A stretch of DNA of 47,084 nt from positions 1 through 47,084 of IMG/VR virus record IMGVR_UViG_3300048596_000020. One strand, written 5' to 3'. Source of the stretch: a virus. The notes beneath the pieces were generated by a model, which was given only the letters and a program-made list of their open reading frames with translations, was not told the origin of the DNA and did no database searches. The translations under genes and the position numbers were made by a program. Below are positions 1,927-45,407 of the stretch, piece after piece (positions within the stretch are counted from its first letter, which is position 1; each line of letters opens with the position of its first letter).

Positions 1927-2237
1927 GGCTTGGCTTCCTTTTCGGTCAGTGCCAGTTGCGCCGCCGCAGCGATCAGCGCGTCATAATCGACGGCACTCAG
2001 GCTGGCAACAGGTTTCGGGCTGCACACGGGGATGACCGCAGTTTCATAGAGCGCGATGGCGCTACGAAGTTGCGAATCGGAAACACGACCAGCCTTGTGC
2101 CCCACCGTGATTACCTGCAGTGCGGAAGCTGCAGTTTCACAGGTGGCAGCGATGTTCTGCCTGGTCGTGAGGGTCTGACACGCGCCGGTAAACATCACCA
2201 ACGCGAGCGCCAGCCCGCACAACAGTCTTTGCTTCAT
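1923..2237 (-). CDS. Small lipoprotein, candidate outer-membrane spanin (104 aa)
   Basis: Start ATG 2237 overlaps the holin-like stop (ATGA). The N-terminus is a lipoprotein-type signal: Lys-Arg, a hydrophobic stretch (residues 5-16) and FTGAC with candidate lipidated Cys20. Thr at -3 is not the usual Leu, so the lipobox is imperfect. The rest is soluble and mostly helical with two further cysteines. Together with the membrane/coiled-coil protein two genes upstream it could form the spanin pair that fuses the inner and outer membranes at lysis. The two spanin candidates are not nested but separated by the holin-like gene, which leaves doubt. Confidence 0.6.
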   Translation of the reverse strand: MKQRLLCGLALALVMFTGACQTLTTRQNIAATCETAASALQVITVGHKAGRVSDSQLRSAIALYETAVIPVCSPKPVASLSAVDYDALIAAAAQLALTEKEAKP

Positions 2238-2599
2238 GGTGTATCTCCCACGGCTGTTACTTTGATTTGATCGCCTTCCTGCAGGTCCACTTGCCCCGGC
2301 GATGTAGGCAGTGGCGTTGAAGGGTTGGCCGCAGCCTTGGCCATGTTGTCGATTGTTTGATCCTTGCGCGAGTTGGCGTAGCTCGCGCCGAAGAAAAATC
2401 CGACTACCAGGCCCACGTTCGTAGACAGAATGCCGATCAGCAGCGTGAAGGAATTTGCGTTGGCGTCCGGTATCTGTTCGAACACCAGTGCCCAGGTGAC
2501 GAAGCCAAGTATGCAGACCAGCCCCGTCGCCACGAACGCGCCGGTCAGCGCCATCATCAGCGACGGCCAATCGAAGTGTGCCTTCCTGCGCTCGGTCAT
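2234..2599 (-). CDS. Holin-like membrane protein (121 aa)
   Basis: A charged N-terminus (MTERRK) is followed by two hydrophobic segments, about residues 14-40 and 51-71. The second ends in FFFGASYANSRKD, which resembles the end of the last helix in the 3-TM/GTA-type holin superfamily. The C-terminal 45 residues are polar. It lies between the two spanin candidates and downstream of the amidase, so it is the likely pore-former that releases the endolysin. ATGA overlaps on both sides show coupled translation. Confidence 0.6.
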   Translation of the reverse strand: MTERRKAHFDWPSLMMALTGAFVATGLVCILGFVTWALVFEQIPDANANSFTLLIGILSTNVGLVVGFFFGASYANSRKDQTIDNMAKAAANPSTPLPTSPGQVDLQEGDQIKVTAVGDTP

Positions 2600-2991
2600 T
2601 TCCTATCCTCCAATTGTTCCAATGCTCGCTGGTAGTCATGCACCAGCCCACGGTTAGTGCGTTCCAGTTCGAAAATCTTGTCGTGCAATTCCGCCTGCTC
2701 CCTGCGCAGCCCGGTGACGAAGGTGATCGTGGTCTGCTGATCGTCCTCTAGTTCTGCAATGCGCTTGTCGCGTGCGGCAATGATGTCATCCTTGCGATTG
2801 ATTTCCTTTTCAAGACGTTCGCGCTGCGCTTCGCCCTGCTGCATCATCGTATCGACGTTGCTCAGTGCGATCTTGCCCACACGCGCCACTGCCATTGCCG
2901 CCAGCACGAACAGGATGATCAGCAACAACCAGGGCGTGAGCGACGGATTGGTGCCAAGCAAATCGACCAGGTGATTAAGGAAATTAAGCAC
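2596..2991 (-). CDS. Inner-membrane spanin-like protein (131 aa)
   Basis: One transmembrane segment (about residues 19-37) is followed by a long charged coiled coil with heptad-like Glu/Arg/Leu pattern to the end. This is the architecture of Rz-type inner spanins. I chose GTG 2991, which overlaps the preceding stop by 8 nt; a TTG at 3027 in the same frame would add 12 residues and a longer overlap. Neither has a convincing ribosome site, so the start is uncertain. Partner is presumably the lipoprotein at 1923-2237. Confidence 0.6.
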   Translation of the reverse strand: MLNFLNHLVDLLGTNPSLTPWLLLIILFVLAAMAVARVGKIALSNVDTMMQQGEAQRERLEKEINRKDDIIAARDKRIAELEDDQQTTITFVTGLRREQAELHDKIFELERTNRGLVHDYQRALEQLEDRK

Positions 2992-3472
2992 GGTTGCGAT
3001 CCGCGTTGGGAACAACGTGTTCGTCAATGCGGATCACATGGTTTACATACGACAGGAGTTTGAGGATTGCGAACAGCGAGTAACAAGCAAACCCTGGGCT
3101 GAATATCGGGCGCACTACGATGAATGCAGTCGTGAGCATGCACCAGCAGACAAACGCAACCAAGCTGGAAGAGATACGCACGTTGGGCCAGTGCATGCGC
3201 TTGCACGCATAGCACAGGATGCCGGTAGCAAGCACGGTCCAGCTAATCAGCGTGGGATGCCCCACGGTCATGCGCGCAAGTTGATGCGTCACGGGCCAGC
3301 CGTACCAAAAATTCGGGAACGCCAGCGTCCACAGTCCCCACCAAATGCCGACGAAATCCATCAGTCCATCCAGCTTGTTAACATGCTGCAGGAACTGGAT
3401 CGTGGCCAAACTCACACGCTGCACTCGCGGCGTGTCAGCAGGCAGCGGCGGGATGTTGGCGTAGTCGATCAT
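2984..3472 (-). CDS. Four-helix membrane protein in the lysis cassette (162 aa)
   Basis: ATG 3472 overlaps the amidase stop (ATGA). About four hydrophobic segments are visible: around GLWTLAFPNFWYGW, LISWTVLATGILCYAC, SSSLVAFVCWCMLTTAF and YSLFAILKLLSYV. It sits directly downstream of the endolysin and upstream of the spanin-like gene. It may be a second holin or an antiholin, but no family-specific motif is present. Confidence 0.6.
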   Translation of the reverse strand: MIDYANIPPLPADTPRVQRVSLATIQFLQHVNKLDGLMDFVGIWWGLWTLAFPNFWYGWPVTHQLARMTVGHPTLISWTVLATGILCYACKRMHWPNVRISSSLVAFVCWCMLTTAFIVVRPIFSPGFACYSLFAILKLLSYVNHVIRIDEHVVPNADRNRA

Positions 3473-4002
3473 CGGTGCGCGATCAGGACCGCTGCGATGG
3501 CCTTGGCCAGCAACCACTTCTTCGCATCGTATTGCGCCAGGTCATACGGGCTGCTGATGAAGAACAGTTCCACGATGATGCCGCCCGCGCGCACGAACGC
3601 GAGCCGATGATGCTGGCCAGAGTCCTCGGGCTTCGCGCCGCGATTGGGAATCTGCAGCGTGGAAGCGATCACCGCGCACAGTTCGCGGCACAGCGGATAG
3701 TCCTGCGCAGCGGAAAGCGTTTCCACGCCGCTCGCGGTTCGCGGCCCCGCATTGCAATGGAATTCCAGTGCGGGCCGATTGCTGCCGACGATCTTCACGG
3801 TATCCGCCAGCGCCATGTTCTCGTCGCCCACGCCATCGGCAGCGTGCGGAACCTTGTCGCGCATCAGATAGAAGGCGATCAGGTTGCGTATCTCTTCCGC
3901 GATGTCGGCTTCGTGCCGCTGCACTTGCTTGCCGTCAACGATTTGGATGGTGCTGCTCGCACCAGGATCAACGGTGGAATGACCAGCAGACAGGAAAATC
4001 AT
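3469..4002 (-). CDS. N-acetylmuramoyl-L-alanine amidase, endolysin (Amidase_3 type)
   Basis: A 177-aa single-domain zinc amidase that cleaves the amide bond between N-acetylmuramic acid and L-alanine. Visible signature: SAGHS near the N-terminus (zinc His8), an early Glu in RHEAD (Glu31), FHCNA (His82), and GGIIVELFFIS with the catalytic Glu145. There is no signal peptide and no cell-wall-binding domain, typical of globular endolysins of Gram-negative phages that wait for a holin. GGAG lies before ATG 4002. It heads the lysis cassette, after the tail genes. Confidence 0.9.
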   Translation of the reverse strand: MIFLSAGHSTVDPGASSTIQIVDGKQVQRHEADIAEEIRNLIAFYLMRDKVPHAADGVGDENMALADTVKIVGSNRPALEFHCNAGPRTASGVETLSAAQDYPLCRELCAVIASTLQIPNRGAKPEDSGQHHRLAFVRAGGIIVELFFISSPYDLAQYDAKKWLLAKAIAAVLIAHR

Positions 4003-4034: not shown

Positions 4035-5387
4035 TCAAACCGTGGGGTAAGGCGTTGTTGGCGGGGTGAAGTTAGCCGTGTAGCGCGCGGCGCGCGTGAC
4101 GCGGACCCATCCGATCCAGCCATCCAGTTCGCCGTTGTTTGGCAGCGAGGGGCTGTCCGCACCGATGGTAAGACTCGCGCTCGCGCCGACTGCGGTAGAC
4201 CAGGCAATGTCCGCGCCCATCTGCACGCCGCCCTTGAACATTTTGGCGACAGAGCCGGATCGGCTGATGGCGAAGTGATCCTTCGTGTTCGCAGCAATCG
4301 AACCTGTGCGCTGGTTGACTGGCGAATCGCCTTGACGCATGTGCAAGCCCACGCCGCCACTGTCAATGCCGAACAGGAAGCCGCCACCCGCACCTGTGTA
4401 CTGGCTTATCAGCGCCATCAATTGAACGAACGTGCGTTCCTCCGCGTAGCATTCCAACGTGAAGTCGCCTGCGGTTCCAGAAGATACACCGAAGTTCCAG
4501 TCGGCATTGTTGTCGGTGATGAACACGGAATCCGACACGCCATCCAGCATCAGTGCGCCAAGCGGGAAGTGACTGTTGCCGGTGTCGATCTGCGCCTGAT
4601 TGTTCCAGGTGAACGCAGTGTGCCGCCCCGTAAGGTCGGTGACGCTTGTGCTGGTGTCTGCACCTTCGAAGGGCAGCAACAGCACCGTCTTTTCCCAGAA
4701 CGGATCAGCGAAGGTCGGCGCGACCCATGCGGACTTCCACGGCAACGCGCCAGTGGGGATCGCCATGTTGAATGCGGAGTCACCGAAGTTGACATCATCG
4801 CTGTCCGTGATGCCAAGCAATCCAAGCGCGGCATAAATCGCAGTGCCCGGAGTCACCGACCACGAATGCGTCGGCAGGGTTTCCAGCGATGGATCGCCGC
4901 CGCGCAACCATCCGGCAACATTGCTGGTGCGCGCCCACACGCGGATCAGGCCAGTAGATACATTGATGCGCACTGCCAAGCCCGCATATCCGCCAGCACT
5001 CACGCCTGCGCCGCCAGTACCGCCCGAAATAAGCGCACCGTTCTGATAGCACTGCCGCGTTGCGTTGGTGAAGTACCAGCCGAACGCGAGCGCGCCTGTG
5101 CCGGGATAGTTGGCGAGCGTGTCGCCTGGAACCATCAGGCCGAACAGATGACCGCCACTCGCATCCTTCACGGTGGCGCGTGCTTCCATGTAGAAGAAGC
5201 CCTCGGTATGCGTGTTGTTGCTGCGCACGCTATGCCACGCGCCTGCGCCGCCGCTCTTGCCAGCAGTCAGGTTGCCACCGGACAGCGCGATGTTCGCGTG
5301 CTTGTCGCTGGGATTCCAGGTCACGGTTCCGCCGCCGCCACCCGCCGATCCCCTTCCCATCACTGTCAGCATTTGACCGGGGCGCAT
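4035..5387 (-). CDS. Tail-tip receptor-binding candidate with SPRY-like and LamG-like domains (450 aa)
   Basis: After a Gly-rich linker, residues about 20-225 look like a B30.2/SPRY fold (HTEGFFYMEARATVKD, GGHLFGLM, GALAFGWYF strands). Residues about 235-450 look like a laminin-G/concanavalin-A-like jelly roll (VLLLPFEGADTS, ALMLDGVSDSVFI, FTLECYAEER, WIGWVRVTRAARY). Both are binding folds for proteins or glycans. ATG 5387 begins one base after the preceding stop; an in-frame start 30 bp earlier overlaps the upstream gene and is less likely. Placed after gpJ, it is a good receptor-binding candidate. Confidence 0.7.
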   Translation of the reverse strand: MRPGQMLTVMGRGSAGGGGGTVTWNPSDKHANIALSGGNLTAGKSGGAGAWHSVRSNNTHTEGFFYMEARATVKDASGGHLFGLMVPGDTLANYPGTGALAFGWYFTNATRQCYQNGALISGGTGGAGVSAGGYAGLAVRINVSTGLIRVWARTSNVAGWLRGGDPSLETLPTHSWSVTPGTAIYAALGLLGITDSDDVNFGDSAFNMAIPTGALPWKSAWVAPTFADPFWEKTVLLLPFEGADTSTSVTDLTGRHTAFTWNNQAQIDTGNSHFPLGALMLDGVSDSVFITDNNADWNFGVSSGTAGDFTLECYAEERTFVQLMALISQYTGAGGGFLFGIDSGGVGLHMRQGDSPVNQRTGSIAANTKDHFAISRSGSVAKMFKGGVQMGADIAWSTAVGASASLTIGADSPSLPNNGELDGWIGWVRVTRAARYTANFTPPTTPYPTV

Positions 5388-5388
5388 A

Positions 5389-5991
5389 TCAGGATTCCTG
5401 CGAGACAGACACGACATCCCACTTCGTATCGTCGGAGTTGTAGACCATGCCGATATACAGCAGCTTGCCTGGCACCGTGGCCACGGGCAGCGTCACGCCG
5501 ATGGCGCGGTACTGCGTACCGTAAGTGATGGCGCGCGAAGTGCCATTGTCTTTGATGCGGATGGCCATTGCGAAGCCGGGAATCGCCGTGCCGGTCGGAT
5601 TGGCGAACGCCAGCGCAACAGCCTGCGCAGTGACCTTCACCATATCGTCCGAGAACGTGGGCGTCACCGTCGCTGCAGATGCCACGGCTTGAATCGACGG
5701 CGAGCGATTTTGTTTCAGCGCAAGCGCGTTGGTGACGGTAGTTGCGAACGCTGCATCGTTACCGATTGCAGTGGCCAGTTCGACCAGCGTGTTCAACCCT
5801 GTAGGCGCAGCACCGATCAGCGCAGCGATGTCCGCAGCAGTGGCAACCACATACTCTGTACCGGCGTCATCCTTGTAGCAGAAGAACGGACCTGTCTTGC
5901 CGTAGGTGACGATATGCCCTGCGGCGGGCGTTGCTGGTGCTGCAGCGACTTTCAGGAACAGCTTGCGGTATTTGCTTTCGTCGCCGTACAT
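5389..5991 (-). CDS. Tail-fibre-like protein (200 aa)
   Basis: The centre contains LNTLVELATAIGNDAAFATT followed by VTNALALKQ, the helical shaft repeat typical of T4/lambda-type side fibres. It is followed by a beta-rich C-terminal half with several Val/Thr strands. It follows gpJ closely (stop 5389, gpJ stop 6001) and precedes the SPRY/LamG gene. It is likely part of the central or side fibre; no chaperone domain seen. Confidence 0.7.
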   Translation of the reverse strand: MYGDESKYRKLFLKVAAAPATPAAGHIVTYGKTGPFFCYKDDAGTEYVVATAADIAALIGAAPTGLNTLVELATAIGNDAAFATTVTNALALKQNRSPSIQAVASAATVTPTFSDDMVKVTAQAVALAFANPTGTAIPGFAMAIRIKDNGTSRAITYGTQYRAIGVTLPVATVPGKLLYIGMVYNSDDTKWDVVSVSQES

Positions 5992-18470: not shown

Positions 18471-19787
18471 TTACGCGATCAGCGCAGCGATGGCAGTGGC
18501 GAAGTCGCCAGTGATGAACGCGCCGGGACGCTTCACAGCGATGGCGACACGCTCTTCGGCACGAACCGTGGCAAGGTTCTTTTCGAAGTCATCGACGTTC
18601 TCGGTGCTGATCAGCACTTCCACGCCCATGCGGTCATAGACCGTCGCGCCCTGCTGGAAGTTGCCCACCAGGAAGTCGCCCAGGTCCATCGCCGGGGTGT
18701 TGACCACCGGCAGACCCCACATGCTCGCGCCGCCGTTGTTGCGCGTCGGGTTGGCCCACAGGTACGCGCCGTCCGTGGTCTTGGTCAGTTCGACCATCGC
18801 CCAATCCGACTCGTTGAGGACGATGCCATCGGGCGGCAGCAGCGCGAGCGCGCCCTGCAGCATGGCCAGGCGCAGAACGTCGATACGCGTGCCCTTCGCA
18901 TCGACGTAGCCAGCGGGCTTCGCGTAGGCAGTGGCCTGCGGGATGATGCCGTGCAGGTTCTGGCCGACGCCGGTGCCGTACAGGAACTGGCGCTCTTCGA
19001 CGTAGCCCAGGCCATAGCGCATTTCGGAGTCGATTTCGCCCATCAGGCGCGGCGCATCGTCCATCGCCTGCCGGGTGATCTTCGCCAGGTGCGCCAGCGT
19101 GCGGACCACCACGGTCGCGCTCGACCAGGCGTAGTCGCTGTACGGCTTCGGCGCGGCTTCGGCAACCGGAGCCGCCGCGTTGGTGCGCGTGGTCTGGATC
19201 GCGTAATCGACCGAACTGGTGGCGATGGGCACGGTGCGCAGAAGGTCACGCACCACGCGGCGCTCGCGCAGCAGCGACACGACATCCGCCTCGCGGGCAG
19301 AGCGGATCAGGCCGCCAGCGGCAGTGCTGGTGACGGACTTCACTTCGACGCCGATGGTGCCACGGCGCGAGCCGCGATCCTGCAGCGACTTGAAGTTCTC
19401 GCTGTTGACGAACTGCTCGCCCCAGGTCTGCTCACGTTCCGGCTCGTCGCCGCGCGATGCCGCCTTCTGCTCCAACTCGACCACGTTCGCCTGCAGACCG
19501 TTGAACTTGGTCAGCATTTCATCGACGGTCGTGCGCAGCTTTTCCATCGTCGGATCGTTCGCGGCCATCTTCGCCTTGAACTCGGTCTGCAGTTCACCGA
19601 ACTGGCCGCGCAGCGCGTCGATGCCTTCCAGCTTCGTCTTGACCTCGGTGGCCAGTTCTTCCAGCGTGACTGCAGCGGCGGGCAGCAGGATCGCGCCCTC
19701 GTAGTGGCCCAGCGCCATCAGCGTTGCGGCGATGGCCACGATCAGCACCATCATGGCGACGGTGGCGAAACCTTTGTTGAACTTCAT
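18471..19787 (-). CDS. Major capsid protein, HK97 fold, with N-terminal hydrophobic segment
   Basis: 438 aa. Residues about 40-125 are charged and helical like an HK97 delta scaffold domain (TLEELATEVKTKLEGIDALR). From about 150 the HK97-fold core is clear: LLRTVPIATSSVDYAIQT, LAKITRQAMDDAPRL, EERQFLYGTGVGQNLHGI and GDFLVGNFQQGATVYDRMGVEV. Unusually, residues 7-27 form a strongly hydrophobic helix ahead of the delta domain. AAGGGG 9 nt before ATG 19787 supports this start. The prohead protease follows immediately upstream in the map. Confidence 0.95.
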   Translation of the reverse strand: MKFNKGFATVAMMVLIVAIAATLMALGHYEGAILLPAAAVTLEELATEVKTKLEGIDALRGQFGELQTEFKAKMAANDPTMEKLRTTVDEMLTKFNGLQANVVELEQKAASRGDEPEREQTWGEQFVNSENFKSLQDRGSRRGTIGVEVKSVTSTAAGGLIRSAREADVVSLLRERRVVRDLLRTVPIATSSVDYAIQTTRTNAAAPVAEAAPKPYSDYAWSSATVVVRTLAHLAKITRQAMDDAPRLMGEIDSEMRYGLGYVEERQFLYGTGVGQNLHGIIPQATAYAKPAGYVDAKGTRIDVLRLAMLQGALALLPPDGIVLNESDWAMVELTKTTDGAYLWANPTRNNGGASMWGLPVVNTPAMDLGDFLVGNFQQGATVYDRMGVEVLISTENVDDFEKNLATVRAEERVAIAVKRPGAFITGDFATAIAALIA

Positions 19788-25391: not shown

Positions 25392-25588
25392 GCGCGCGTC
25401 CAGTTTTCACGCTGGCGGATTCGGTGAGCGATCCGAAGCTGGCGCAGGCAATGCGGGACAGTGCCGCCCGCGCTTGGGTTTGGGTTAACCCGGAAGGTGC
25501 CGCATTCTGGCTTCACGGCGACAAGGCGCGCTTTGATAAGTTGCAAGCCAACAGAGGCGGCACAATCTTTCCGCCGGAAGCGCCATGA
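25388..25588 (+). CDS. Hypothetical protein (66 aa)
   Basis: ATG 25388 in an ATGA overlap. Short soluble protein with an Ala/Asp-rich helix and an aromatic patch (AWVWVNPEGAAFWLHGDK). No family recognised. Confidence 0.65.
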   Translation: MSARPVFTLADSVSDPKLAQAMRDSAARAWVWVNPEGAAFWLHGDKARFDKLQANRGGTIFPPEAP

Positions 25589-25683
25589 TCCGCGCGCTGG
25601 TAACGCTGGTGGCAATCCTGCTGGCTGCAATGCTGGCAGTTGGCATTTATGAAAACCTGCGCGCGTTTGGAGTAGTCGCATGA
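25585..25683 (+). CDS. Small single-pass membrane protein, 32 aa
   Basis: From ATG 25585 to TGA 25683, with ATGA overlaps at both ends. One clear transmembrane helix (LVTLVAILLAAMLAVGIY), short polar ends. Small membrane peptides in early phage operons often act on host membrane proteins; no direct evidence here. Confidence 0.6.
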   Translation: MIRALVTLVAILLAAMLAVGIYENLRAFGVVA

Positions 25684-29347: not shown

Positions 29348-31909
29348 TCAATGGGTTGGTTGGGTTTGAAGTTGGGTTTGGAGTTGGTCTAGTTCAAGCC
29401 TTGCATCCCCCTTAAAGCCATTCTTGATCCAGATGGTGTGCGTGGAGTTGCGCCACTTCAACTGCTTGGGCAATTTACTGTAGCCCATCCGGGTCAGCAT
29501 GTGATTTAGTGCCATCGTCCTCGGGACTTCAAACCCATCGGTCATCGCCCGAACCTTCAAAGCGTTGGTCAGGCAACTGCTGGAAATCACGTTCCGGCTG
29601 ATCCCATGCGCCCCCTCGCTAATTATAGATTCGGCCACGGACTCGGCATCTTCCTGGCTCGACGCCATCATCTGCATCTTCTCAGGCGTCATCAGGGCGC
29701 TGCCATCCGCATCGAATCCATCCAGCGGCAACGCCAGCAGCCACGCGCGCAGTTCGCCCGCACAGTGCTTCCACGCATGGTCTACGGCATCGGTGCGCGC
29801 CTTCCAACCCGCAGCGTCCAGTCCGCAGTACGTCAACATTTCGGTCAGGCTCGACCAGGGCGTAAAGACAATGAACCAGCGACGGTCGCCCAACTCCAAT
29901 GGAATAGCGTCATTGTGGTTGGTGAAGGCAACATGGTTGGTGATGTTCCAGGTCTTGTATCCCTTGTCGCCTTTCGCATTGACGCTGATGACATCGTTCG
30001 AAATACAATCCTTCATAGCGTTGTAGATGGTGTATCGGATTTTGCCGGTCAGCATGATTTCTTCGATGAAGTTGATCGCGCTGCCAACCTTCCAGTCATC
30101 GAATTGCCCGCTGTTGGTCAGTACGGTGTTGCCGGTCACGCCGACATTGCGGTATCCCATTGCCGCACGCACTGCCGCCGCGACCAGGCTCTTGCCGTCA
30201 CCCTGCGTACCCTTGATCAGCGGCGACCATCGCACCTTCACGCCAGGCCGCTGTACGTTGTGCGCCAACCATCCCAGCAGCGCAGTGAATACGTCCTGCC
30301 TGCGACCGCACATATCCCACAACAACGCCTGCAGTGCCGCGATCCCCGCAATCCCCCGCTCCGTATAGCTCGTCGCCGTGATCGGCACGCTGTTCGCGTT
30401 GTACTTATTCGCGTAGTCGTAGCCGTCCCACGAAAACAGATTCTCTTTGTCAGGCCGATAGCCCAGGTGATGCACGGTCGCAATGTTCCAGCGAGTGAAC
30501 GCCCATTCGACCGGATCTTCCCGCGCGCCACTTTCACGCATCGGCATCAGCCGCGAATACTCCGCACGGAATGACTGATAGCTCAACTCCGAACCGTCCG
30601 CGCAGTTGTAGAAGAAATCGCCCGCCTTGACGTACACATGCTGTTGCATCCACAACGGCGGCTCCGATCCCTTGCCGCCCGCGATCACTGGCGGGAACAG
30701 CAGCGCACGCACCTTGGCAACCGGCAGTTTCGCCTTCCAGATTTCCAGCCGTTCGTTGACGCTGCGCACGATCAGTTCCTGATACGCCCCCGGCACGCCC
30801 GCGCTGCGAATGCTGGGGATGATCAGGTTGTGCATATCCTCCACCGTGCCGCACGCACTCACGGCATCCAACAACGCCTGCACCTGTGCCTTCTGCTCGG
30901 CAGTGATCAACTCGCCCCCAACGCTCTGCACCGTCACAGGCGCACCGCTGCCGTACATTTCAGTCTGCACCGCGATACTGCGCTGCGGTTCCTGGTAGAC
31001 CTGGCTGCAGCCCGCGCACGCATTCGCAATGGTCAACTCGCGCAGGTAGGTGCGATGTTCGTTCCATTTCTCCCGCGCCAGTCCGCTTTTGCGCATCAGC
31101 CGTTCGATCCGCTCTTCATCGCAGCCGGTCCAGAACGCCAGGTGCGAAGCGAGCGCCATATCATGCTCGCTGCTCAACTCCACTTCACCGCGCCACAACT
31201 GGCCGAAGGTAGCCTTGCCTCCGAACACGCTGGCCGCACCCGCACGCGCAGCGAGCGCCTTTGCAATCAGCGCATCATCATCGGCAGGGCCACGCCACTC
31301 GGCGCGCGGACCATCGCCACGCTCGCCAGCCACACGCGGCGGGAAATACTTTCCGATCAGCGTGGCCACCATCGCATCATGGCAACTGTCCGCATTGCCC
31401 TGCGCGATCCCATCCAGGCCGAACGCAATGCCGCGCCCCTCGGTGTAGAACTCCATGTGCAGCTTGTGGATGTCGCGGCTACGATGTTCGCCAATAGGCG
31501 CAGCAGTTTTGCCGATGATATGGATACCGCGCTTGCTGCTGCTCCACTCCATCAGCGCACCGGGGAAGCACGCCGCCATCCCTGCAGCGAACTCAGACAG
31601 CACGCCATCAACAGCACAACCGTCGATGTCGAAGAACCAGTAGCCGCAATCGGCGGTCATCCAGAAGCCCAGCGCATAACGCAGCGCACCTTGGCTCGAC
31701 GCAGCGCGAACATCCAGCAATGCCGCCACGCTCACGGCATCGTCGTAGCGCATCCAGTTCTTCGAATCGCCAGCGTCCAGCTTGAACACGCTGCCGTCAT
31801 TCGCGCACGGAGTTTTCTTGTACTTCGCTTCAACGCCATCCCATTCCAGCCGCCACACGAACCACTGCGGAATGTTCTTCATCCCGCCCAACGCATCATG
31901 CAAACTCAT
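29348..31909 (-). CDS. Primase with C-terminal SF3 (D5-type) helicase
   Basis: 853 aa from ATG 31909, overlapping the methyltransferase-like stop (ATGA). The N-terminal half looks like a primase-polymerase/D5 N-terminal region: IPQWFVWRLEW opening, YWFFDIDG with catalytic Asp-x-Asp (about residue 90), SSSKRGIHIIGK, and EFYTEGRGIAFGLDG. The C-terminal superfamily 3 ATPase: Walker A GTQGDGKS (about 570), Walker B AINFIEEI, sensor VAFTNHNDAIPLELGDRRWF. It would unwind and prime phage DNA. It ends beside the origin candidate. Confidence 0.9.
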   Translation of the reverse strand: MSLHDALGGMKNIPQWFVWRLEWDGVEAKYKKTPCANDGSVFKLDAGDSKNWMRYDDAVSVAALLDVRAASSQGALRYALGFWMTADCGYWFFDIDGCAVDGVLSEFAAGMAACFPGALMEWSSSKRGIHIIGKTAAPIGEHRSRDIHKLHMEFYTEGRGIAFGLDGIAQGNADSCHDAMVATLIGKYFPPRVAGERGDGPRAEWRGPADDDALIAKALAARAGAASVFGGKATFGQLWRGEVELSSEHDMALASHLAFWTGCDEERIERLMRKSGLAREKWNEHRTYLRELTIANACAGCSQVYQEPQRSIAVQTEMYGSGAPVTVQSVGGELITAEQKAQVQALLDAVSACGTVEDMHNLIIPSIRSAGVPGAYQELIVRSVNERLEIWKAKLPVAKVRALLFPPVIAGGKGSEPPLWMQQHVYVKAGDFFYNCADGSELSYQSFRAEYSRLMPMRESGAREDPVEWAFTRWNIATVHHLGYRPDKENLFSWDGYDYANKYNANSVPITATSYTERGIAGIAALQALLWDMCGRRQDVFTALLGWLAHNVQRPGVKVRWSPLIKGTQGDGKSLVAAAVRAAMGYRNVGVTGNTVLTNSGQFDDWKVGSAINFIEEIMLTGKIRYTIYNAMKDCISNDVISVNAKGDKGYKTWNITNHVAFTNHNDAIPLELGDRRWFIVFTPWSSLTEMLTYCGLDAAGWKARTDAVDHAWKHCAGELRAWLLALPLDGFDADGSALMTPEKMQMMASSQEDAESVAESIISEGAHGISRNVISSSCLTNALKVRAMTDGFEVPRTMALNHMLTRMGYSKLPKQLKWRNSTHTIWIKNGFKGDARLELDQLQTQLQTQPTH

Positions 31910-32541
31910 GCTGCCATCCCCCATTGTTCGGCATAGGCATCGGAGTGCCCTTGCAATGTTTCGCTGCGCTTCTGCCAGCGGTCAGCACCTGGAGGCATGC
32001 GATGCACGCGGCTCCATACTTTATGCTCTTGCGTGCCCACTGCAGGCGGCACAAGAATCTTCGTCGGCTGCAGCAGCGGCACGCCGCGAATCCACAGGCA
32101 GGTAGCCTTGAACTCGGGATGCCCGAACTGCCACGGCTGGATGATCTGCGATGGACCGCAACCGATGATTGCCTGCGCGTGACCGTGCATGATCGGATTC
32201 TCCGCGACCACGCGCGGAATATCGGCGTTCAACATTTCCTTGAAGAACTCCGCCGCCTCGCGCATCTTCTGCCATCGCGGCAGGTACGGGCCATTCTCTT
32301 TGCGACCGTCGATATACAGGTGCTTCACGCCGCTGTTGCACAGGAACGTACAGGTCGGATGCACGATGAACAAATCGAAGTAGCCGCGCATGCAATGCAG
32401 AACATGGCGAATGTCCTGCTGGAAATGCCACGGGCTGTTGTCGGCGCTGGGCAGCAAATCGCAACTCCATGCTTCATGCCCGCGTCGGCGGAACGCTTCG
32501 CGCGTCTTGCCGCTGCTCTCGCACCCGATCAGAACTCTCAT
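31906..32541 (-). CDS. DNA cytosine C5-methyltransferase-like protein
   Basis: 211 aa from ATG 32541 (ATGA overlap). Rossmann-type opening MRVLIGCESSGKTREAFRRR, then GHEAWSCDLLPS, FIVHPTCTFLCNSG (in the place of the PC motif with catalytic Cys) and VVAENPIMHGHA (ENP, in the place of ENV), ending in WQFGHPEFKATCLWIRGVP. This family is common in phages and usually labelled cytosine methyltransferase. It is shorter than true C5 enzymes and has no obvious target-recognition domain, so activity is uncertain. No restriction enzyme partner is present. Confidence 0.75.
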   Translation of the reverse strand: MRVLIGCESSGKTREAFRRRGHEAWSCDLLPSADNSPWHFQQDIRHVLHCMRGYFDLFIVHPTCTFLCNSGVKHLYIDGRKENGPYLPRWQKMREAAEFFKEMLNADIPRVVAENPIMHGHAQAIIGCGPSQIIQPWQFGHPEFKATCLWIRGVPLLQPTKILVPPAVGTQEHKVWSRVHRMPPGADRWQKRSETLQGHSDAYAEQWGMAA

Positions 32542-36067: not shown

Positions 36068-36553
36068 TTAGAGATTGAATGAACCTGGGCCTGTGCAAAA
36101 TGCAGCGTCCCCGCCTTTGCTCAACACGAAGTTCGCCCAATTCAACTGTGCTATTTCGTGCTTGTCGCCTTTGAACTTCCAGCTTTCGTGCTTGACCTCG
36201 CGCGAAACAAATTGCCCGATCATCCTCCCGATATGCTGTGGCCCGATGACGATGGACCGAATGCCGATCAGGTCTGCCGACTTGACAACCTGGTTCTGCG
36301 CCTTGTTTTCGTTAGCCAGTCCGTAGCGAACGGGGACATTGCGCTCGTCCAGTAAAGCACCTACGTTGTTTCGTGTCAACCAAATGCCATTTGTAGCAGC
36401 GTCAATCCGTACTAGGCTTTGTTGACGCGACTCGCTGCCGTCGCCACCGCTGACAGCAATCGCGGGCGCAGCGTCCAGTCCCAGGCGTGCGTATAGGTCG
36501 CGCATCGCCTCTGCAGGGATCGCCCAACGCGCCGCCCAATCACCAAGGTTCAC
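36068..36553 (-). CDS. VRR-NUC-type nuclease
   Basis: 161 aa. C-terminal PD-(D/E)xK core of the virus-type replication-repair nuclease family: SADLIGI (Asp94), GQFVSREVK (Glu119-x-Lys121), then HEIAQLNWANFVLSKGGDAAF (Gln136) and FCTGPGSF. Such nucleases act on branched or structured DNA in phage replication modules. The N-terminal 60 residues are an extra helical part. Overlaps the upstream gene by 4 nt. Confidence 0.8.
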   Translation of the reverse strand: MNLGDWAARWAIPAEAMRDLYARLGLDAAPAIAVSGGDGSESRQQSLVRIDAATNGIWLTRNNVGALLDERNVPVRYGLANENKAQNQVVKSADLIGIRSIVIGPQHIGRMIGQFVSREVKHESWKFKGDKHEIAQLNWANFVLSKGGDAAFCTGPGSFNL

Positions 36554-36801
36554 GCGACTAGCAACTTGCGCGTGTCGATGATGCGCACTTCACCGAACAG
36601 CATTTGCGTTTTGATCGTGCCCCACAACCGATTGAACAGCACGTTGCCTGCCGGATCGCGGATGTCGGTGATGACGTAGCCCATGACATCATCGGCGGCG
36701 AAGCAACCTTCCACGCGCTTGCCGTCCAGCCAGATATTGTACTGGCCCAAGTTCTCGCGCCCGATGAAGTCAGGATCAGAACTGTCTACGGTAATTCTCA
36801 C
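36550..36801 (-). CDS. Hypothetical beta-rich protein (83 aa)
   Basis: GTG 36801 (GTGA overlap). MRITVDSSDPDFIGRENLGQ, with YNIWLDGKRVEGCFAADDVM and GYVITDIRDPAGNVLFNRLW: short strands with DG turns, resembling small phage proteins that carry a modified-base or metadata-like beta fold. No named family. Confidence 0.62.
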   Translation of the reverse strand: MRITVDSSDPDFIGRENLGQYNIWLDGKRVEGCFAADDVMGYVITDIRDPAGNVLFNRLWGTIKTQMLFGEVRIIDTRKLLVA

Positions 36802-37049
36802 AGCTTGTTCTCCCCGACGCCCAGCGCCACCATCGGATGCGCGTTGTCCACGATACTCAGAATGACCGGCGCACCTTCCTGCAGGCGCTTCAATTCATCA
36901 GGCGTAGGAAACCAGGCCGACTGAATCACGATCCTGCCCGTGTCGCCCCACTGCGCAACGCGCACATGCAATGCGTGGCATTCATCGGGATCAACGCCCT
37001 GCGGCGCACCCAGCCTGTTCGTGTGTCCTTCAATCACGCCCGCTATCAT
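36798..37049 (-). CDS. Hypothetical protein (83 aa)
   Basis: ATG 37049 has GGAG 8 nt upstream and overlaps the rhomboid stop by 20 bp. Mixed alpha/beta (GVIEGHTNRLGAPQGVDPDE, ALHVRVAQWGDTGRIVIQSA, WFPTPDELKRLQEGAPVILS). The C-terminal part resembles a small family seen in phages as unannotated proteins. Translation is coupled to the protease gene. Confidence 0.65.
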   Translation of the reverse strand: MIAGVIEGHTNRLGAPQGVDPDECHALHVRVAQWGDTGRIVIQSAWFPTPDELKRLQEGAPVILSIVDNAHPMVALGVGENKL

Positions 37050-37581
37050 TGTCCAATCTCCATACCCAATAGTTGAGTGTCGCAAAGCCCGCGACCATGC
37101 CGCCCGCGTGCGCCCAATGTCCGACCTGGCCCAGCCATCCTGTAGCGGCCAGCAGCAGGCTCAATGCGAACGCCACGGTCGCTGCCATCCATGCGGTCAT
37201 CGGCATCACCAGCAGCCATACACGCCGCTTGGGATAGAAGCATGCGTAAGCGGCCAGCAGTCCGAAGATGACGCCTGACATTCCCAGCGCCGGAAGGTCT
37301 GGACCTAGCGCCATCTGCGCAGCGGCAGCACCGTAGCCACACCACAGCAGATACCACAGGTAACGCTCGCTGCCGATGTAATGCTCAATGTGCCGACCGA
37401 TGGTGTAGAACGCGATGCCATTGATCGCCAGGTGCCACCACGCGCCATGCACGAACGCATAGGTCACGACTTGCCACAGGTGGAACGCGTGACCGGGCTG
37501 CAGCATCAGTGCGTCCAGCGGCCAGAAGAAACCTGCTGCGTAGACCGCGATCATCAGACCCAGGTAGATGCGAGTGATCAC
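37030..37581 (-). CDS. Rhomboid-family intramembrane serine protease
   Basis: 183 aa, about six hydrophobic segments. The rhomboid signature is complete: WQVVTYAFVHG (the W-R-x-x-T loop-1 region, Arg replaced by Gln37), WWHLAINGIAF with H50-x3-N54, LGMSGVIFGL with G-x-Ser102-G, and GHWAHAGGMVAG with His158-x2-G161-x3-G165. Ser102 and His158 form the catalytic dyad in GlpG-type enzymes, and Asn54 lies at the oxyanion hole. The protein is the minimal six-helix form without a cytoplasmic domain. It sits in the leftward replication operon between two small soluble genes, coupled to both. Substrate unknown. Confidence 0.88.
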   Translation of the reverse strand: MITRIYLGLMIAVYAAGFFWPLDALMLQPGHAFHLWQVVTYAFVHGAWWHLAINGIAFYTIGRHIEHYIGSERYLWYLLWCGYGAAAAQMALGPDLPALGMSGVIFGLLAAYACFYPKRRVWLLVMPMTAWMAATVAFALSLLLAATGWLGQVGHWAHAGGMVAGFATLNYWVWRLDNDSGRD

Positions 37582-37829
37582 GGATGTTCACCCAGCGCAC
37601 GCAGCAAATCCCAGGACGGTTGCCAGCCGGTCGCCGCGATAGCCGCTTCGATGGCCGCTTCGTTGTCCGCTTCCGCATCGACCACCGCGACCCAATAGCG
37701 ATTGTCGTAAGCGACGGTAGCGTACATCAACGTGTCCACCGGGATCGTCGCCGGGACAGGCCGCTCCTGACAGACAATCGCGCCAGCATCGGGTCCGTTT
37801 ACTACGAGAATATCAACTGCGTTGCTCAT
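37578..37829 (-). CDS. Hypothetical protein (83 aa) upstream of the rhomboid gene
   Basis: ATG 37829 preceded by AAAGGG. Soluble: DILVVNGPDAGAIVCQERPV then TVAYDNRYWVAVVDAEADNE and an acidic/Ala helix ending WDLLRALGEHP. ATGA overlap with the protease gene, so both are made together. The opening resembles small phage proteins of unknown role. Confidence 0.65.
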   Translation of the reverse strand: MSNAVDILVVNGPDAGAIVCQERPVPATIPVDTLMYATVAYDNRYWVAVVDAEADNEAAIEAAIAATGWQPSWDLLRALGEHP

Positions 37830-37986
37830 GTTTTGTGCCCTTTATTTTGAATGACTCTTGCAACAGTCTGTGCAAATTGAAAATGCACTCCATGAAAGCG
37901 CCGCCCTCTTCGAACGCAGCGATGCGCAGCTTGGCAGCTTCTGCGATTACCTTGTCGGCAAGCTCTACGCGTGGCTTGTCACTCAT
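37813..37986 (-). CDS. Small protein, 57 aa
   Basis: ATG 37986 overlaps the helicase stop (ATGA); the stop at 37813-37815 lies 17 nt inside the next gene. MSDKPRVELADKVIAEAAKL..., then FEEGGAFMECIFNLHRLLQE. Amphipathic helical; no membrane helix. Confidence 0.6.
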   Translation of the reverse strand: MSDKPRVELADKVIAEAAKLRIAAFEEGGAFMECIFNLHRLLQESFKIKGTKHEQRS

Positions 37987-39671
37987 TTTCCTGTCACCTT
38001 TTCAAGAATGCGTTGGCGCAGTGCGTCTGCGTCGGCGCATCGTAGACCCTGCGCGGTTAAAGTGTCAACTCCGAACGTATGGAAGAACCTGCGATTGGCC
38101 ACACGCTGATCCATCGACGGCGGCAAGTAGAGGAACATCGCTGCGCGCAGTTGCCGTTGCGCTTCCACTACCTGCTGATGCTCGCGCCGCTTGCGCCCAA
38201 TGATTTCATCGCTGGCACCGTAGGGAATCGACAGCGTATCTGCCTTGCGGATCGCGCCGAACAATTCATCAAGCATCGCCTGCGTGTAGAGAATGATGTC
38301 ACCGTCTACATGCTCGGGGCGCGTTGGTTCTTTCGGTGGCGGTGGCTCCTGACCGCAGTACGGGCACGCCGGATAGATTCGCTCGTAGGGCTGCAGGCAT
38401 TCGGGATTGATGCACGCGCGCAGCGGGATGCCATCGACGGCGCGCGTACTCTTGGAGCGCGCATCCAGCGACCACGGAACTTTCCGCATATCAGGCGGGC
38501 CGTGATGCGTGATGATGTTGCCAACGTGGTCAATGATCAGCGCGTAGGGCTTGTCGCTTGCGGCAATGAACGCCAGGCGTTGCGCCACGCTGTAGCTGTC
38601 CCACGCGGCAGCAAGGATCGGAGACACCATCAGGCGCAGCGAGCGACCGAACTGCTGGGTGAACAGACTGTAGCTAGCCGTGGGCCGCGCCATGCTGATC
38701 ACTTCGATGGCGGGTACGTCCACGCCCTCGCCAAACAAATCGACGTTGACCAGTTGTAACAATTCGCCCGCTTCGAACTGGCGCATGTACCGGAAGCGGT
38801 CTGCGTCGGGAGTCTCGGCATGCACAACTTGCGCAGGCACACCCGCTGCGTTGAATGCACCGGCAATCGTAGTTGCATGCTCGACATCGACAGCGAACGT
38901 GATGCCGCGCTTTCCGCGCGCGTAGCGCAGGTAGGTCGCAACGACATCGCCAACGATAGTCTTGGATGCCTTGACGCGCGTGCGCATTTGTTCGAACTTG
39001 AAGTCGCCAGTTGCCTGCGAAATCTCCAAGCCTTCCAGGTCCAGGTCGGATGGATGCGGCGCGAGGATGCGGTAGTCGGTCAAGTAACCGTTACCGATCA
39101 ACCAGCGCATATTCGGACCTTCGATCAGCGTGTCCACCAGGCCATCGCTGTGCGATCCCAACCCGCGACCATCGGCACGGATCGGCGTAGCCGTGGGGAA
39201 CAGTCCGCGCGCATTTTCGAACAGGGAGAATGCGCGCCCCCACTTGTTGTCTTTCAGAACGTGATGCCCTTCATCCTGCATCACCAGGCCGACTGATCGC
39301 GTCCAGTTGCGATCCAAGTCGCGGCGCAGCAGCGTGTCCACGCTGGCCACCTTCCACTTCGCGCGCGTGTCGTAGAAGCTGCGGCCAACGCGTTCCATCT
39401 GCGCCTGCACAATGGAGCGCACCGTGTTCTTCGGGGCCATGATGTCGTGGCGCAGCCCTTCGCGCGCGAGCGCAATGCTGATCTGTCCGACCAGTTCGCT
39501 GCGATGCGCGATGGCGCACCCGTACCCGCTATACTCATGGGCTATGTTCGCCATGATCACTGTCTTGCCCGCGCCGGTCGGCAGCACCGTCATCACGACA
39601 CGCGCGCCTGCTGCCCATGCTGAGTAAGCGGCGCTCTTTACATCGTTCTGAAACCCGCGTAGCGCAGTCAC
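37983..39671 (-). CDS. Superfamily 2 DExH helicase with zinc-binding region
   Basis: 562 aa, GTG 39671. Motifs in order: FQxD-like Q region (RGFQNDV), Walker A PTGAGKT (31-37), DEGH (133-136), TAT (160-162), helicase C motifs (VDLFGEGVDVP, FTQQFGRSLRL). A Cys4 zinc ribbon follows: CINPEC...CPYCG (about residue 425-445). The closest kind is the type III restriction/UvsW-RecQ-like helicases used by phages for recombination-dependent replication and branch migration. It is third in the operon, after two DUF551 genes. Confidence 0.9.
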   Translation of the reverse strand: MTALRGFQNDVKSAAYSAWAAGARVVMTVLPTGAGKTVIMANIAHEYSGYGCAIAHRSELVGQISIALAREGLRHDIMAPKNTVRSIVQAQMERVGRSFYDTRAKWKVASVDTLLRRDLDRNWTRSVGLVMQDEGHHVLKDNKWGRAFSLFENARGLFPTATPIRADGRGLGSHSDGLVDTLIEGPNMRWLIGNGYLTDYRILAPHPSDLDLEGLEISQATGDFKFEQMRTRVKASKTIVGDVVATYLRYARGKRGITFAVDVEHATTIAGAFNAAGVPAQVVHAETPDADRFRYMRQFEAGELLQLVNVDLFGEGVDVPAIEVISMARPTASYSLFTQQFGRSLRLMVSPILAAAWDSYSVAQRLAFIAASDKPYALIIDHVGNIITHHGPPDMRKVPWSLDARSKSTRAVDGIPLRACINPECLQPYERIYPACPYCGQEPPPPKEPTRPEHVDGDIILYTQAMLDELFGAIRKADTLSIPYGASDEIIGRKRREHQQVVEAQRQLRAAMFLYLPPSMDQRVANRRFFHTFGVDTLTAQGLRCADADALRQRILEKVTGK

Positions 39672-43084: not shown

Positions 43085-43264
43085 ATGGCGCTCAATGTAT
43101 TCATCGGCCTAGTGCTGTTCGCTCTCTTCCTGTGCGCCTGCGCGCTGATGCTGATTGCAGTGTTGAACAATCTGTTCGACCGCAAGCTGGTGTTGAATCA
43201 CCGCACCTTCGTATCGTCGCTAGCGATTGTCGTGTTCCTGGCGACAGTGGTGTATCGCCTGTGA
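43085..43264 (+). CDS. Small two-helix membrane protein, 59 aa
   Basis: From ATG 43085 to TGA 43264. Two hydrophobic helices: residues about 3-26 (VFIGLVLFALFLCACALMLI) and 42-57 (SSLAIVVFLATVVY), joined by a short Arg/Lys/Asn loop. Its stop overlaps the next start (GTGA). Membrane protein next to a polymerase gene; role unknown, possibly anchoring or exclusion. The start lies in the terminator's U-run. Confidence 0.6.
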   Translation: MALNVFIGLVLFALFLCACALMLIAVLNNLFDRKLVLNHRTFVSSLAIVVFLATVVYRL

Positions 43265-43497
43265 CCAAGCGAGCGATAGTAGAAATCACCTGCATTTATG
43301 ACACGGCGCGGCGCTTCGTTTCGTCCGGTTTGCTCACGCGCGATGAAGCACGAACAATGGCGATAGGCGAAGTCGGTCCCGAAACCATCACGCTGCTACG
43401 CCCGCCTGCGCGCAGCGAGTGCGCATCGTGCGGCTCTAGCGAATACAGGGAGCATCACGGGCAGATGATATGCGCGTACTGCAGGAGCATTCCGTGA
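43261..43497 (+). CDS. Zinc-finger protein (78 aa)
   Basis: GTG 43261 (GTGA overlap), which replaces a longer frame that shadows the membrane-protein gene. A Cys4 motif near the C-terminus: C54-x2-C57 ... C71-x2-C74 (CASCGSSEYREHHGQMICAYC). N-terminal helical part. It is coupled to the polymerase gene (GTGA), so it may act with it. Confidence 0.7.
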   Translation: MTKRAIVEITCIYDTARRFVSSGLLTRDEARTMAIGEVGPETITLLRPPARSECASCGSSEYREHHGQMICAYCRSIP

Positions 43498-45407
43498 TCC
43501 GTCCCGCGCTTGAACTCGACATCGAAAACCTCTTCGATTTCTTCCAGATTAAATGCAAGGATCGCGCGACCGGCGTGATCTACAACTTCCCGCTGTACCC
43601 CGGTTGCGACAAGCTGGACCTGCCGACGCTGGTTGACTTGCTCAACCGCTACACCATCTACACCTTCAACGGCATCAACTACGATCTGCCGATCCTGGTA
43701 CTGGCGCTCTACGGCGCAACGCAAGCGCAGTTGAAGGAAGCAAACGATCTGCTGATCGTCCAGCGCATGAAGTGGTGGGATATGTTGCGTCACTACGGCA
43801 TCGACATTCCGCAGTGGATTGATCACGTTGATCTGTTCGACGTTGCGCCTGGCGTGGCCATCGGCCTGAAAATGTATATGGGTCGCATCCACGCGCCGAC
43901 GATGCAGGACATCCCCGTTCCCTTCGACTCGCCCATCAGTCCCATCGAACGCGTCAACGTGTCGTTCTATTGCGACAACGATCTAGATGGCACGGGTCTG
44001 CTGCGCGAAGAGTTGGCGGGCCGACTGCAGTTGCGCGAAGCGATCAGCGCGCAGTACGGCGTCGATGTCCGCAGCAAGTCGGATGCGCAGATTGCCGAAG
44101 CCGTGATCAAGGCGCAGTTGACCTTCACGCCTGACCGCCGCTACATCCCGCATGGCTACAGCTTCAACTACGAGCCGCCCGCGTACATCCGATTCGTGAC
44201 GCCGCAACTGCAGGAACTGTTGCGCATCGCCAGTACGGCGAAGTTCGTAGTCAATGACCGCGAGGAAGCCATCGCGCTCGGATTCACTGCGGCGAAAGCG
44301 ACCTGGCTGTGCGATGTCGATGGCAACGTGCTGCAGTGGGAGCCGCCGAAGATTCGCACGGGCGTAAAGATTCCCCGCGAGTTAGCTGGACTGGACATCC
44401 GCATCGGCCAGGGCGTGTACCGCATCGGCATCGGTGGCCTGCATTCGCAAGAGTCCAGCGTCAACTACAGCACGATCCCCGGCGTTGTGACGGTGAAGGA
44501 TGTCGATGTTCGCAGCTACTATCCGTCGCTGATCCTCACGCTCGGCATGTATCCCGAACAGTTGGGTCCAGGCTTCCAGCAAATTTACCGCCGCGTGTTC
44601 GACCGTCGCCTGGCTGCGAAGGACGCAGGCGAAATGACCGAAAGCGATGGCCTGAAAATTGTTCTCAACGGAACTTTCGGCAAGCTGTTCTCCAAATACA
44701 GCATCCTCTTCGCGCCAGAGTTGGGCATCCGCGTCACGCTGACCGGCCAGTTGGATTTGCTGATGCTGATTGAAATGATGGAACTCAGCGGCATCCGCGT
44801 GGCGAGCGCGAACACCGATGGCATCGTGCTGCTGATCCCGCACGGCTACGATGAAATCGCGCAGGGCATCGTGCAATGGTGGGAGCGCACTACCGGCCTG
44901 CAGATGGAGTACACGCCCTACCGCAGCATCTACATGCGCGATGTCAACAACTACATCGCTATCGGCACCGATGGCAAGGTCAAGCGCAAAGGCGTGTTCA
45001 ACCAGGGAGGACTACTCAGTGGCCCACAGGGAAAGCATCCAGATAAAGATATTTGTGCCGATGCCGTTGTGGCTTATCTCAGGGACGGTGCTCCGATTGA
45101 ACACACCATCCGGTCCTGCACTGATATTCGAAAGTTCCTGCAGGTTCGCAACTGTAAGGCGGGCGCAGTCGATTTGCCTGCAGGTATCGCCATCTGCGAA
45201 GGACGCTATCTAGGCAAGGCACTGCGCTGGTATTACAGTGGCCGTCCCGGCTACATCGGCGTCAAGGAAACCGGCGACAAGGTAGCGGGCAGCGAGGGTG
45301 CAACTCCGATCATGCGACTGCCGACAACGCTGCCGCCCGACATCGACTACAACCGCTACATCACCGTGGCAAAAAATATGCTCACTGACCTGGGAGTTAC
45401 GCAATGA
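43494..45407 (+). CDS. DNA polymerase, family B
   Basis: 637 aa from GTG 43494 with AGGAG 6 nt upstream. 3'-5' exonuclease: LELDIEN (Asp9, Glu11), TFNGINYDLP (Asp64), FYCDNDLDGT (Exo III). Polymerase: motif A DVRSYYPSL (about 338), motif B LKIVLNGTFGKL (about 387), motif C ANTDGIVLL (about 438), then a KRKGVFNQGG thumb-region motif. Motif C is NTDG rather than DTDS: the catalytic Asp is kept, the first Asp is Asn. Replicates the genome with its own proofreading. Confidence 0.92.
   Translation: MIRPALELDIENLFDFFQIKCKDRATGVIYNFPLYPGCDKLDLPTLVDLLNRYTIYTFNGINYDLPILVLALYGATQAQLKEANDLLIVQRMKWWDMLRHYGIDIPQWIDHVDLFDVAPGVAIGLKMYMGRIHAPTMQDIPVPFDSPISPIERVNVSFYCDNDLDGTGLLREELAGRLQLREAISAQYGVDVRSKSDAQIAEAVIKAQLTFTPDRRYIPHGYSFNYEPPAYIRFVTPQLQELLRIASTAKFVVNDREEAIALGFTAAKATWLCDVDGNVLQWEPPKIRTGVKIPRELAGLDIRIGQGVYRIGIGGLHSQESSVNYSTIPGVVTVKDVDVRSYYPSLILTLGMYPEQLGPGFQQIYRRVFDRRLAAKDAGEMTESDGLKIVLNGTFGKLFSKYSILFAPELGIRVTLTGQLDLLMLIEMMELSGIRVASANTDGIVLLIPHGYDEIAQGIVQWWERTTGLQMEYTPYRSIYMRDVNNYIAIGTDGKVKRKGVFNQGGLLSGPQGKHPDKDICADAVVAYLRDGAPIEHTIRSCTDIRKFLQVRNCKAGAVDLPAGIAICEGRYLGKALRWYYSGRPGYIGVKETGDKVAGSEGATPIMRLPTTLPPDIDYNRYITVAKNMLTDLGVTQ

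Follow-up and report, generated by a model that had tools for sequence, protein, structure and literature searches.

A rhomboid intramembrane protease gene with intact catalytic residues in a 47-kb siphophage and its relatives

Within a 47,084-nt virus record (IMG/VR IMGVR_UViG_3300048596_000020, positions 1 to 47,084; this whole stretch of DNA is hereafter called the window), we identified a gene for a 183-aa rhomboid protein. Comparison across phages suggests that this is an accessory, moron-like gene, carried repeatedly by phages and kept as an apparently active protease. With moderate confidence, we read its product as an active GlpG-class rhomboid whose most likely targets are one or several inner-membrane proteins of the host, cut to the benefit of the phage. 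Few membrane proteins are as widespread as rhomboids, and phage members are already known as annotations (DLP3, DLP5, Summit; PHROG 16931). What our sequence comparisons appear to add is a further phage group with a rhomboid, differing positions of the gene within that group, and retention of the catalytic residues across phages.

Results and discussion

A rhomboid-family protein encoded by a siphophage

The rhomboid open reading frame reads from 37581 to 37030 on the minus strand, which the original prediction had left unstated, and the same frame on the plus strand contains stops (Table 1). The Pfam rhomboid family PF01694 matched the 183-aa protein at 97 bits (E 1.5e-27, profile positions 3-139 of 143), which, set against a curated cut-off of 22.6 bits for this family, excludes a chance match. 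The original prediction, made from the DNA letters, had read a whole rhomboid signature and suggested a search with the family profile: the strong PF01694 match bears out the assignment, and the signature was confirmed at H50-x3-N54, G100-M-S102-G, and H158-x2-G161-x3-G165. As a single query, the window protein gave no matches in viral or genome collections, and alignments were needed to find homologues. Designed repeat proteins that topped a phmmer search of the PDB were rejected as an artefact, consisting of short pieces whose single stretches had i-Evalues of 15 or worse. The 183-aa protein is a rhomboid-family member by every test run.

The virus is a 47-kb siphophage, with the rhomboid gene in a translationally coupled early/replication operon; the record also encodes a tail-length tape measure protein, a J-like tail protein, portal, terminase, capsid, primase, helicase, and DNA polymerase. 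Codon usage of the rhomboid gene scored 0.236 log-odds per codon, compared with 0.235 for the helicase and −0.13 to −0.66 for the other five frames, and its GC3 of 0.73 is the same as that of the helicase.

Table 1 Locations of the rhomboid gene and of other features discussed in the text (window coordinates unless a genome is named)
Feature	Location	Strand	Remarks
Rhomboid intramembrane serine protease	37030..37581	minus	183 aa, GTG start; H45, H50, N54, S102, H158
83-aa soluble gene directly upstream of rhomboid	37578..37829	minus	4-base overlap (GTGA) with rhomboid start
83-aa soluble gene directly downstream	36798..37049	minus	phrog_34105; start within rhomboid 3' end
83-aa gene, next in operon	36550..36801	minus	phrog_24619, unknown function
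Endonuclease-like protein	36068..36553	minus	Partial phrog_93 match, E 5e-11; kept in all compared relatives
Superfamily 2 DNA helicase	37983..39671	minus	phrog_16, 8e-78; upstream in same leftward gene run
Variable slot, helicase to nuclease-like gene	36068-39671
Major capsid protein with hydrophobic N-terminus	18471-19787	minus
Same capsid group	G017:C1:980-2320; G001:C1:10912-12306; Silvanus 4322-5767; L214; L222
Lysis-region membrane proteins, window	2234-3517		Small membrane proteins
Lysis-region membrane proteins, G017	G017:C1:35693-37005
Other small membrane proteins	25585-25683; 43085-43264
Endolysin	3469-4002		Common to window and G017
Primase	29348-31924	minus	PF22763 domain
DNA polymerase	43470-45407

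Active site and predicted fold

In an alignment of 25 homologues, both cellular and viral, seven columns were invariant (H45, H50, N54, G100, S102, H158, and G161), and these include the whole catalytic set: the catalytic serine in the GxSx motif (S102), the histidine in helix 6 (H158), and the H-x3-N of the oxyanion hole in helix 2 (H50 and N54). Among 47 viral rhomboid rows, H50, N54, S102, and H158 were kept in every row covering the position, so that the relatives retain the catalytic residues whose loss had been proposed as evidence against the assignment.

The AlphaFold2 model built from the homologue alignment (pLDDT 88.2, pTM 0.84) has six main helices, in agreement with the six-helix layout first read from the sequence. 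In this model helix 102-115 begins with S102 and helix 155-179 contains H158, as in GlpG, a predicted helix placement consistent with a Ser102-His158 contact. In a Foldseek search of the PDB, GlpG took all of the first 30 places (TM-score 0.57-0.66) and was thus the best solved fold. The window protein shares the six-helix core of E. coli GlpG (PDB 2xow and 8ab5; PF01694; best TM-scores 0.64-0.66), which a sequence-profile search also reaches at E 4e-18, and in both proteins the GxSG serine stands at the start of helix 4, the histidine in helix 6, and H-x3-N in helix 2. The two nevertheless differ in that the window protein is only ~17-20% identical to GlpG, lacks an N-terminal cytoplasmic domain, and is phage-encoded, within an operon of replication genes.

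Inactive rhomboid-fold proteins do exist, and some appeared as weaker fold matches, which leaves room for a pseudoprotease that would bind membrane proteins without cutting them, like iRhom or Derlin. We consider this extremely improbable: the serine, the histidine, and both oxyanion residues are intact in the window protein and in all covered viral relatives, and the loss of catalytic serine or histidine that marks inactive rhomboids was seen in none of the covered viral rows. This retention across the 25 aligned homologues and 47 viral rows argues against an iRhom-like or Derlin-like inactive form. The catalytic residues of phage rhomboids thus appear to have been kept under selection, a pattern that suggests activity.

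Operon context and neighbouring genes

The gene had been described as lying between genes for small soluble proteins, with coupled starts, downstream of a helicase and upstream of a nuclease. Most of this description stood. Start and stop codons overlap with both 83-aa neighbours; on the upstream side, the stop TGA of the neighbour lies inside a GTGA whose GTG starts the rhomboid. Neither flanking gene appeared in a hydrophobic-segment scan, and the upstream helicase was confirmed by its phrog_16 match, with 52-62% identity to its relatives. The downstream nuclease was recovered as a match to an endonuclease PHROG, although this match is only partial.

The two flanking 83-aa genes had also been put forward as a substrate, inhibitor, or partner of the rhomboid, a role that we reject since their homologues occur away from any rhomboid. 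Homologues of the upstream gene (G017:26193 and G001:36297, 35-37% identity) lie near the helicase with no rhomboid adjacent, and the downstream gene is found in Pseudomonas, Burkholderia, Azospirillum, and other phages, none of which had a rhomboid match in a scan of 50,697 phage records. As a separate observation, the interval from the helicase to the nuclease-like gene is a variable slot, occupied by different small genes in the window, in the related IMG/VR records G001, G002, and G017, and in Stenotrophomonas phage Silvanus.

Patchy presence and shifting position among relatives

By DNA, Silvanus is the closest cultured phage (52% identity for the helicase, 49% for the nuclease-like protein, and 39% for the next gene). 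No rhomboid was found in its complete genome, which has other small genes between the helicase and the nuclease-like gene. G001, G002, and G017 are closer to the window than Silvanus is (helicase 59-62%) and are co-linear with it over the genome. Three of these four related phages carry a rhomboid (the window, G002, and G017), at three non-equivalent positions. The G002 gene lies between nuclease/HTH-like genes and the primase. The G017 gene diverges from an HTH-like gene; encoded on the opposite strand, it occupies the interval from the tail genes to the DNA polymerase operon. This G017 copy is solitary: terminator-like sites lie behind the tail genes and ahead of it, and a promoter scan found no site just before it. 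The window copy, in contrast, is part of an operon with coupled genes. No rhomboid was found in 42 kb of G001, an incomplete contig without the primase stretch, so that absence from this phage is uncertain, and the gene is absent from most relatives found through the helicase.

The lack of a rhomboid in the complete Silvanus genome, and in the 42 kb of G001 with its primase stretch missing, suggests that the gene is dispensable. Patchy presence and a shifting position among close relatives are the pattern that characterizes morons, and the G017 context, with its HTH-like gene and terminator-like sites, is a moron-like setting. Linkage to replication genes, which the original prediction had taken as a guide to when the gene is expressed, does hold in the window phage; it is not conserved in G017 or G002, and is therefore a trait of this phage rather than of the gene. 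A reading of the rhomboid as lysogeny cargo was set aside, since no tyrosine integrase was found in the window or its relatives and a temperate life is not supported.

Absence from Silvanus and from most helicase-found relatives is also what might be expected of a passenger gene useless to the phage, or of a host fragment joined by mis-assembly. This interpretation is very improbable and largely refuted. The phage-like codon usage and the start/stop overlaps with phage genes on both sides make mis-assembled host DNA unlikely, and the gene recurs in two co-linear relatives, with catalytic residues kept over deep divergence.

Other viral rhomboids and the origin of the phage genes

Homologues in other phages, which had been proposed as a further check, were infrequent, and the phages that have them are very diverse. 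Querying 50,697 phage records with the window protein retrieved two huge phages, of 634 and 642 kb, together with a handful of short records that carry no annotation; the matches labelled as Listeria and Enterococcus phages are of the latter kind (3-15 kb) and may be host fragments. With the DLP3 protein as query, the matches were DLP3 itself, DLP5, Summit, and a further phage of 636 kb. Scanning IMG/VR with a profile yielded 36 rhomboid loci on contigs of up to 597 kb. Three of the large contigs also carry a terminase; most others had no match to the one terminase family tried, and some may be host DNA. The BFVD has rhomboids from further phages as well as from giant viruses infecting eukaryotes, and the best viral fold match, a 175-aa protein, is, judging by protein length, probably the DLP3 rhomboid. 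One rhomboid on a viral contig (L049, G037:C1:45570-45992) contains a single in-frame TGA, and represents either a broken gene or a recoded genome.

The rhomboids of DLP3, DLP5, and Summit are phage-encoded like the window gene, 175 aa long, and have the catalytic residues. They are 23% identical to the window protein and, unlike it, belong to larger (96-kb) phages and lie near lipid- and sugar-modifying genes. In the huge phages LR745206 and LR756502 and the IMG/VR loci L042, L044, and L045, short single-domain rhomboids with a full active site (~28-32% identity) cluster together in the tree, with LR756502 and the IMG/VR contigs grouped at 95; the two huge genomes, at 634-642 kb, are far above the 47 kb of the window. 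PHROG 16931, labelled "unknown function", matches the window protein (E 3e-8) and 9 of the 10 other rhomboids tested, the best match of all being to the one cellular rhomboid tested. On these matches, its label should probably read rhomboid protease.

The original prediction knew of no characterised phage rhomboid. As to annotation this novelty falls away, because rhomboid genes had already been annotated in the publications on Stenotrophomonas phages DLP5 and DLP3, where they appear either as a moron, which is how the DLP5 authors list the gene (PMC5834331), or under the domain name alone (PMC5834331, PMC7326821). It stands as to function: our search of open-licence papers found no functional study of a phage or viral rhomboid, and phages and viruses go unmentioned in a 2025 review of the rhomboid superfamily (PMC12615303).

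The best cellular matches to the window protein are short rhomboids of Betaproteobacteria and others of their class, at 41-43% identity and mostly in open frames of 190-330 aa. These short (~200 aa) proteobacterial proteins share its length class and motif set; one of them, L062, lies on a Betaproteobacteria contig beside SmpB-like and secretin-like genes with no phage genes adjacent. The rhomboids of the window group differ from them in having much longer branches. Many of the same cellular genes were retrieved with the G002 and G017 rhomboids, and these similarities suggest that the window gene ultimately derives from a short proteobacterial rhomboid. Depending on the alignment, the window, G002, and G017 rhomboids are mutually 26-37% identical, compared with mostly 35-67% for core phage proteins. 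A tree with the three as one clade had a log-likelihood 9.3 above that of the free tree (p-AU 0.71). Each of the three is a long branch, however, and the trees are compatible with a single capture after which the genes moved and changed fast, as well as with separate captures.

Candidate substrates and roles

If active, the 183-aa protein would sit in the host inner membrane as a six-helix protein, presumably made together with the early genes. S102 would cleave with H158, with H50 and N54 forming the oxyanion hole, and, by analogy with the established chemistry of the family, the cut would fall in helices that lack stability close to the periplasmic side. GlpG and Rhom7 cut metastable orphan subunits of respiratory complexes (PMC7232013), and targets of the phage enzyme would, as for cellular rhomboids, be metastable or incompletely assembled host inner-membrane proteins. 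The benefit to the phage may be the blocking of a second phage, the disarming of a membrane-anchored defence, or a reshaping of the membrane.

Processing of a phage membrane protein had been suggested as another role. Its target might be a lysis protein, or else the major capsid protein with its hydrophobic N-terminus: the window does encode several small membrane proteins (Table 1), and capsid proteins of its phage group begin with a hydrophobic segment. However, a simple hydropathy scan of the three carriers (window, G002, and G017), which could miss short or fast-changing genes, found no shared phage membrane protein other than structural ones, nor any single-pass protein whose presence follows that of the rhomboid. 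In its lysis region the window encodes membrane proteins unlike the set common to G001, G002, and G017, and Silvanus has the hydrophobic capsid N-terminus but no rhomboid. The suggestion is weakened to the point that we consider it unlikely. The lack of a common non-structural phage membrane protein, together with the placement of the rhomboid in different positions, independent of other phage genes, favours a host target.

Two observations on these proteins were made alongside. The major capsid protein of the window group starts with a membrane-anchor-like hydrophobic segment of ~20-25 residues before the delta domain (MKFNKGFATVAMMVLIVAIAATLMALGHYEGAILLP in the window), which is absent from most other related D3-type capsid proteins inspected; given the Silvanus genome, the idea that the rhomboid travels with this segment was rejected. 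The lysis-region membrane proteins have been exchanged, with different sets in the window and G017, and G001, G002, and G017 share a lysis module with Rz/Rz1-like nested genes.

A host target could also be unspecific, with the phage enzyme supplementing the host rhomboid in general quality control, by removing membrane proteins that are orphaned or misfolded. Such a role is known for the bacterial rhomboids GlpG and Rhom7 (PMC7232013) and for YqgP with FtsH (PMC7231995), and the window protein resembles cellular short rhomboids. Yet nearly all hosts already have rhomboids (PF01694 was present in 14 of 14 control genomes), so that a second copy needs a reason, and we regard this role as rather doubtful. 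Returning to the cutting of host proteins for the benefit of the phage, a bolder version, which we hold only tentatively, is that phages use rhomboids as early-made weapons or shields, with receptors, DNA-entry proteins, or membrane-anchored defence effectors of the host as the proteins cut. If true, this would represent a class of counter-defence or superinfection control that has not yet been described.

The recurrence of catalytically intact rhomboids in unrelated phages, including genomes of >300 kb, suggests that some phages profit from the cutting of membrane proteins. Should a target be found, the phage rhomboids would become an important finding, and the target could also reveal roles of bacterial rhomboids and of phage defence in the inner membrane. 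Elsewhere in the window, the primase includes an NrS-1 polymerase-like helix-bundle domain (PF22763), and is encoded alongside a DNA polymerase (Table 1).
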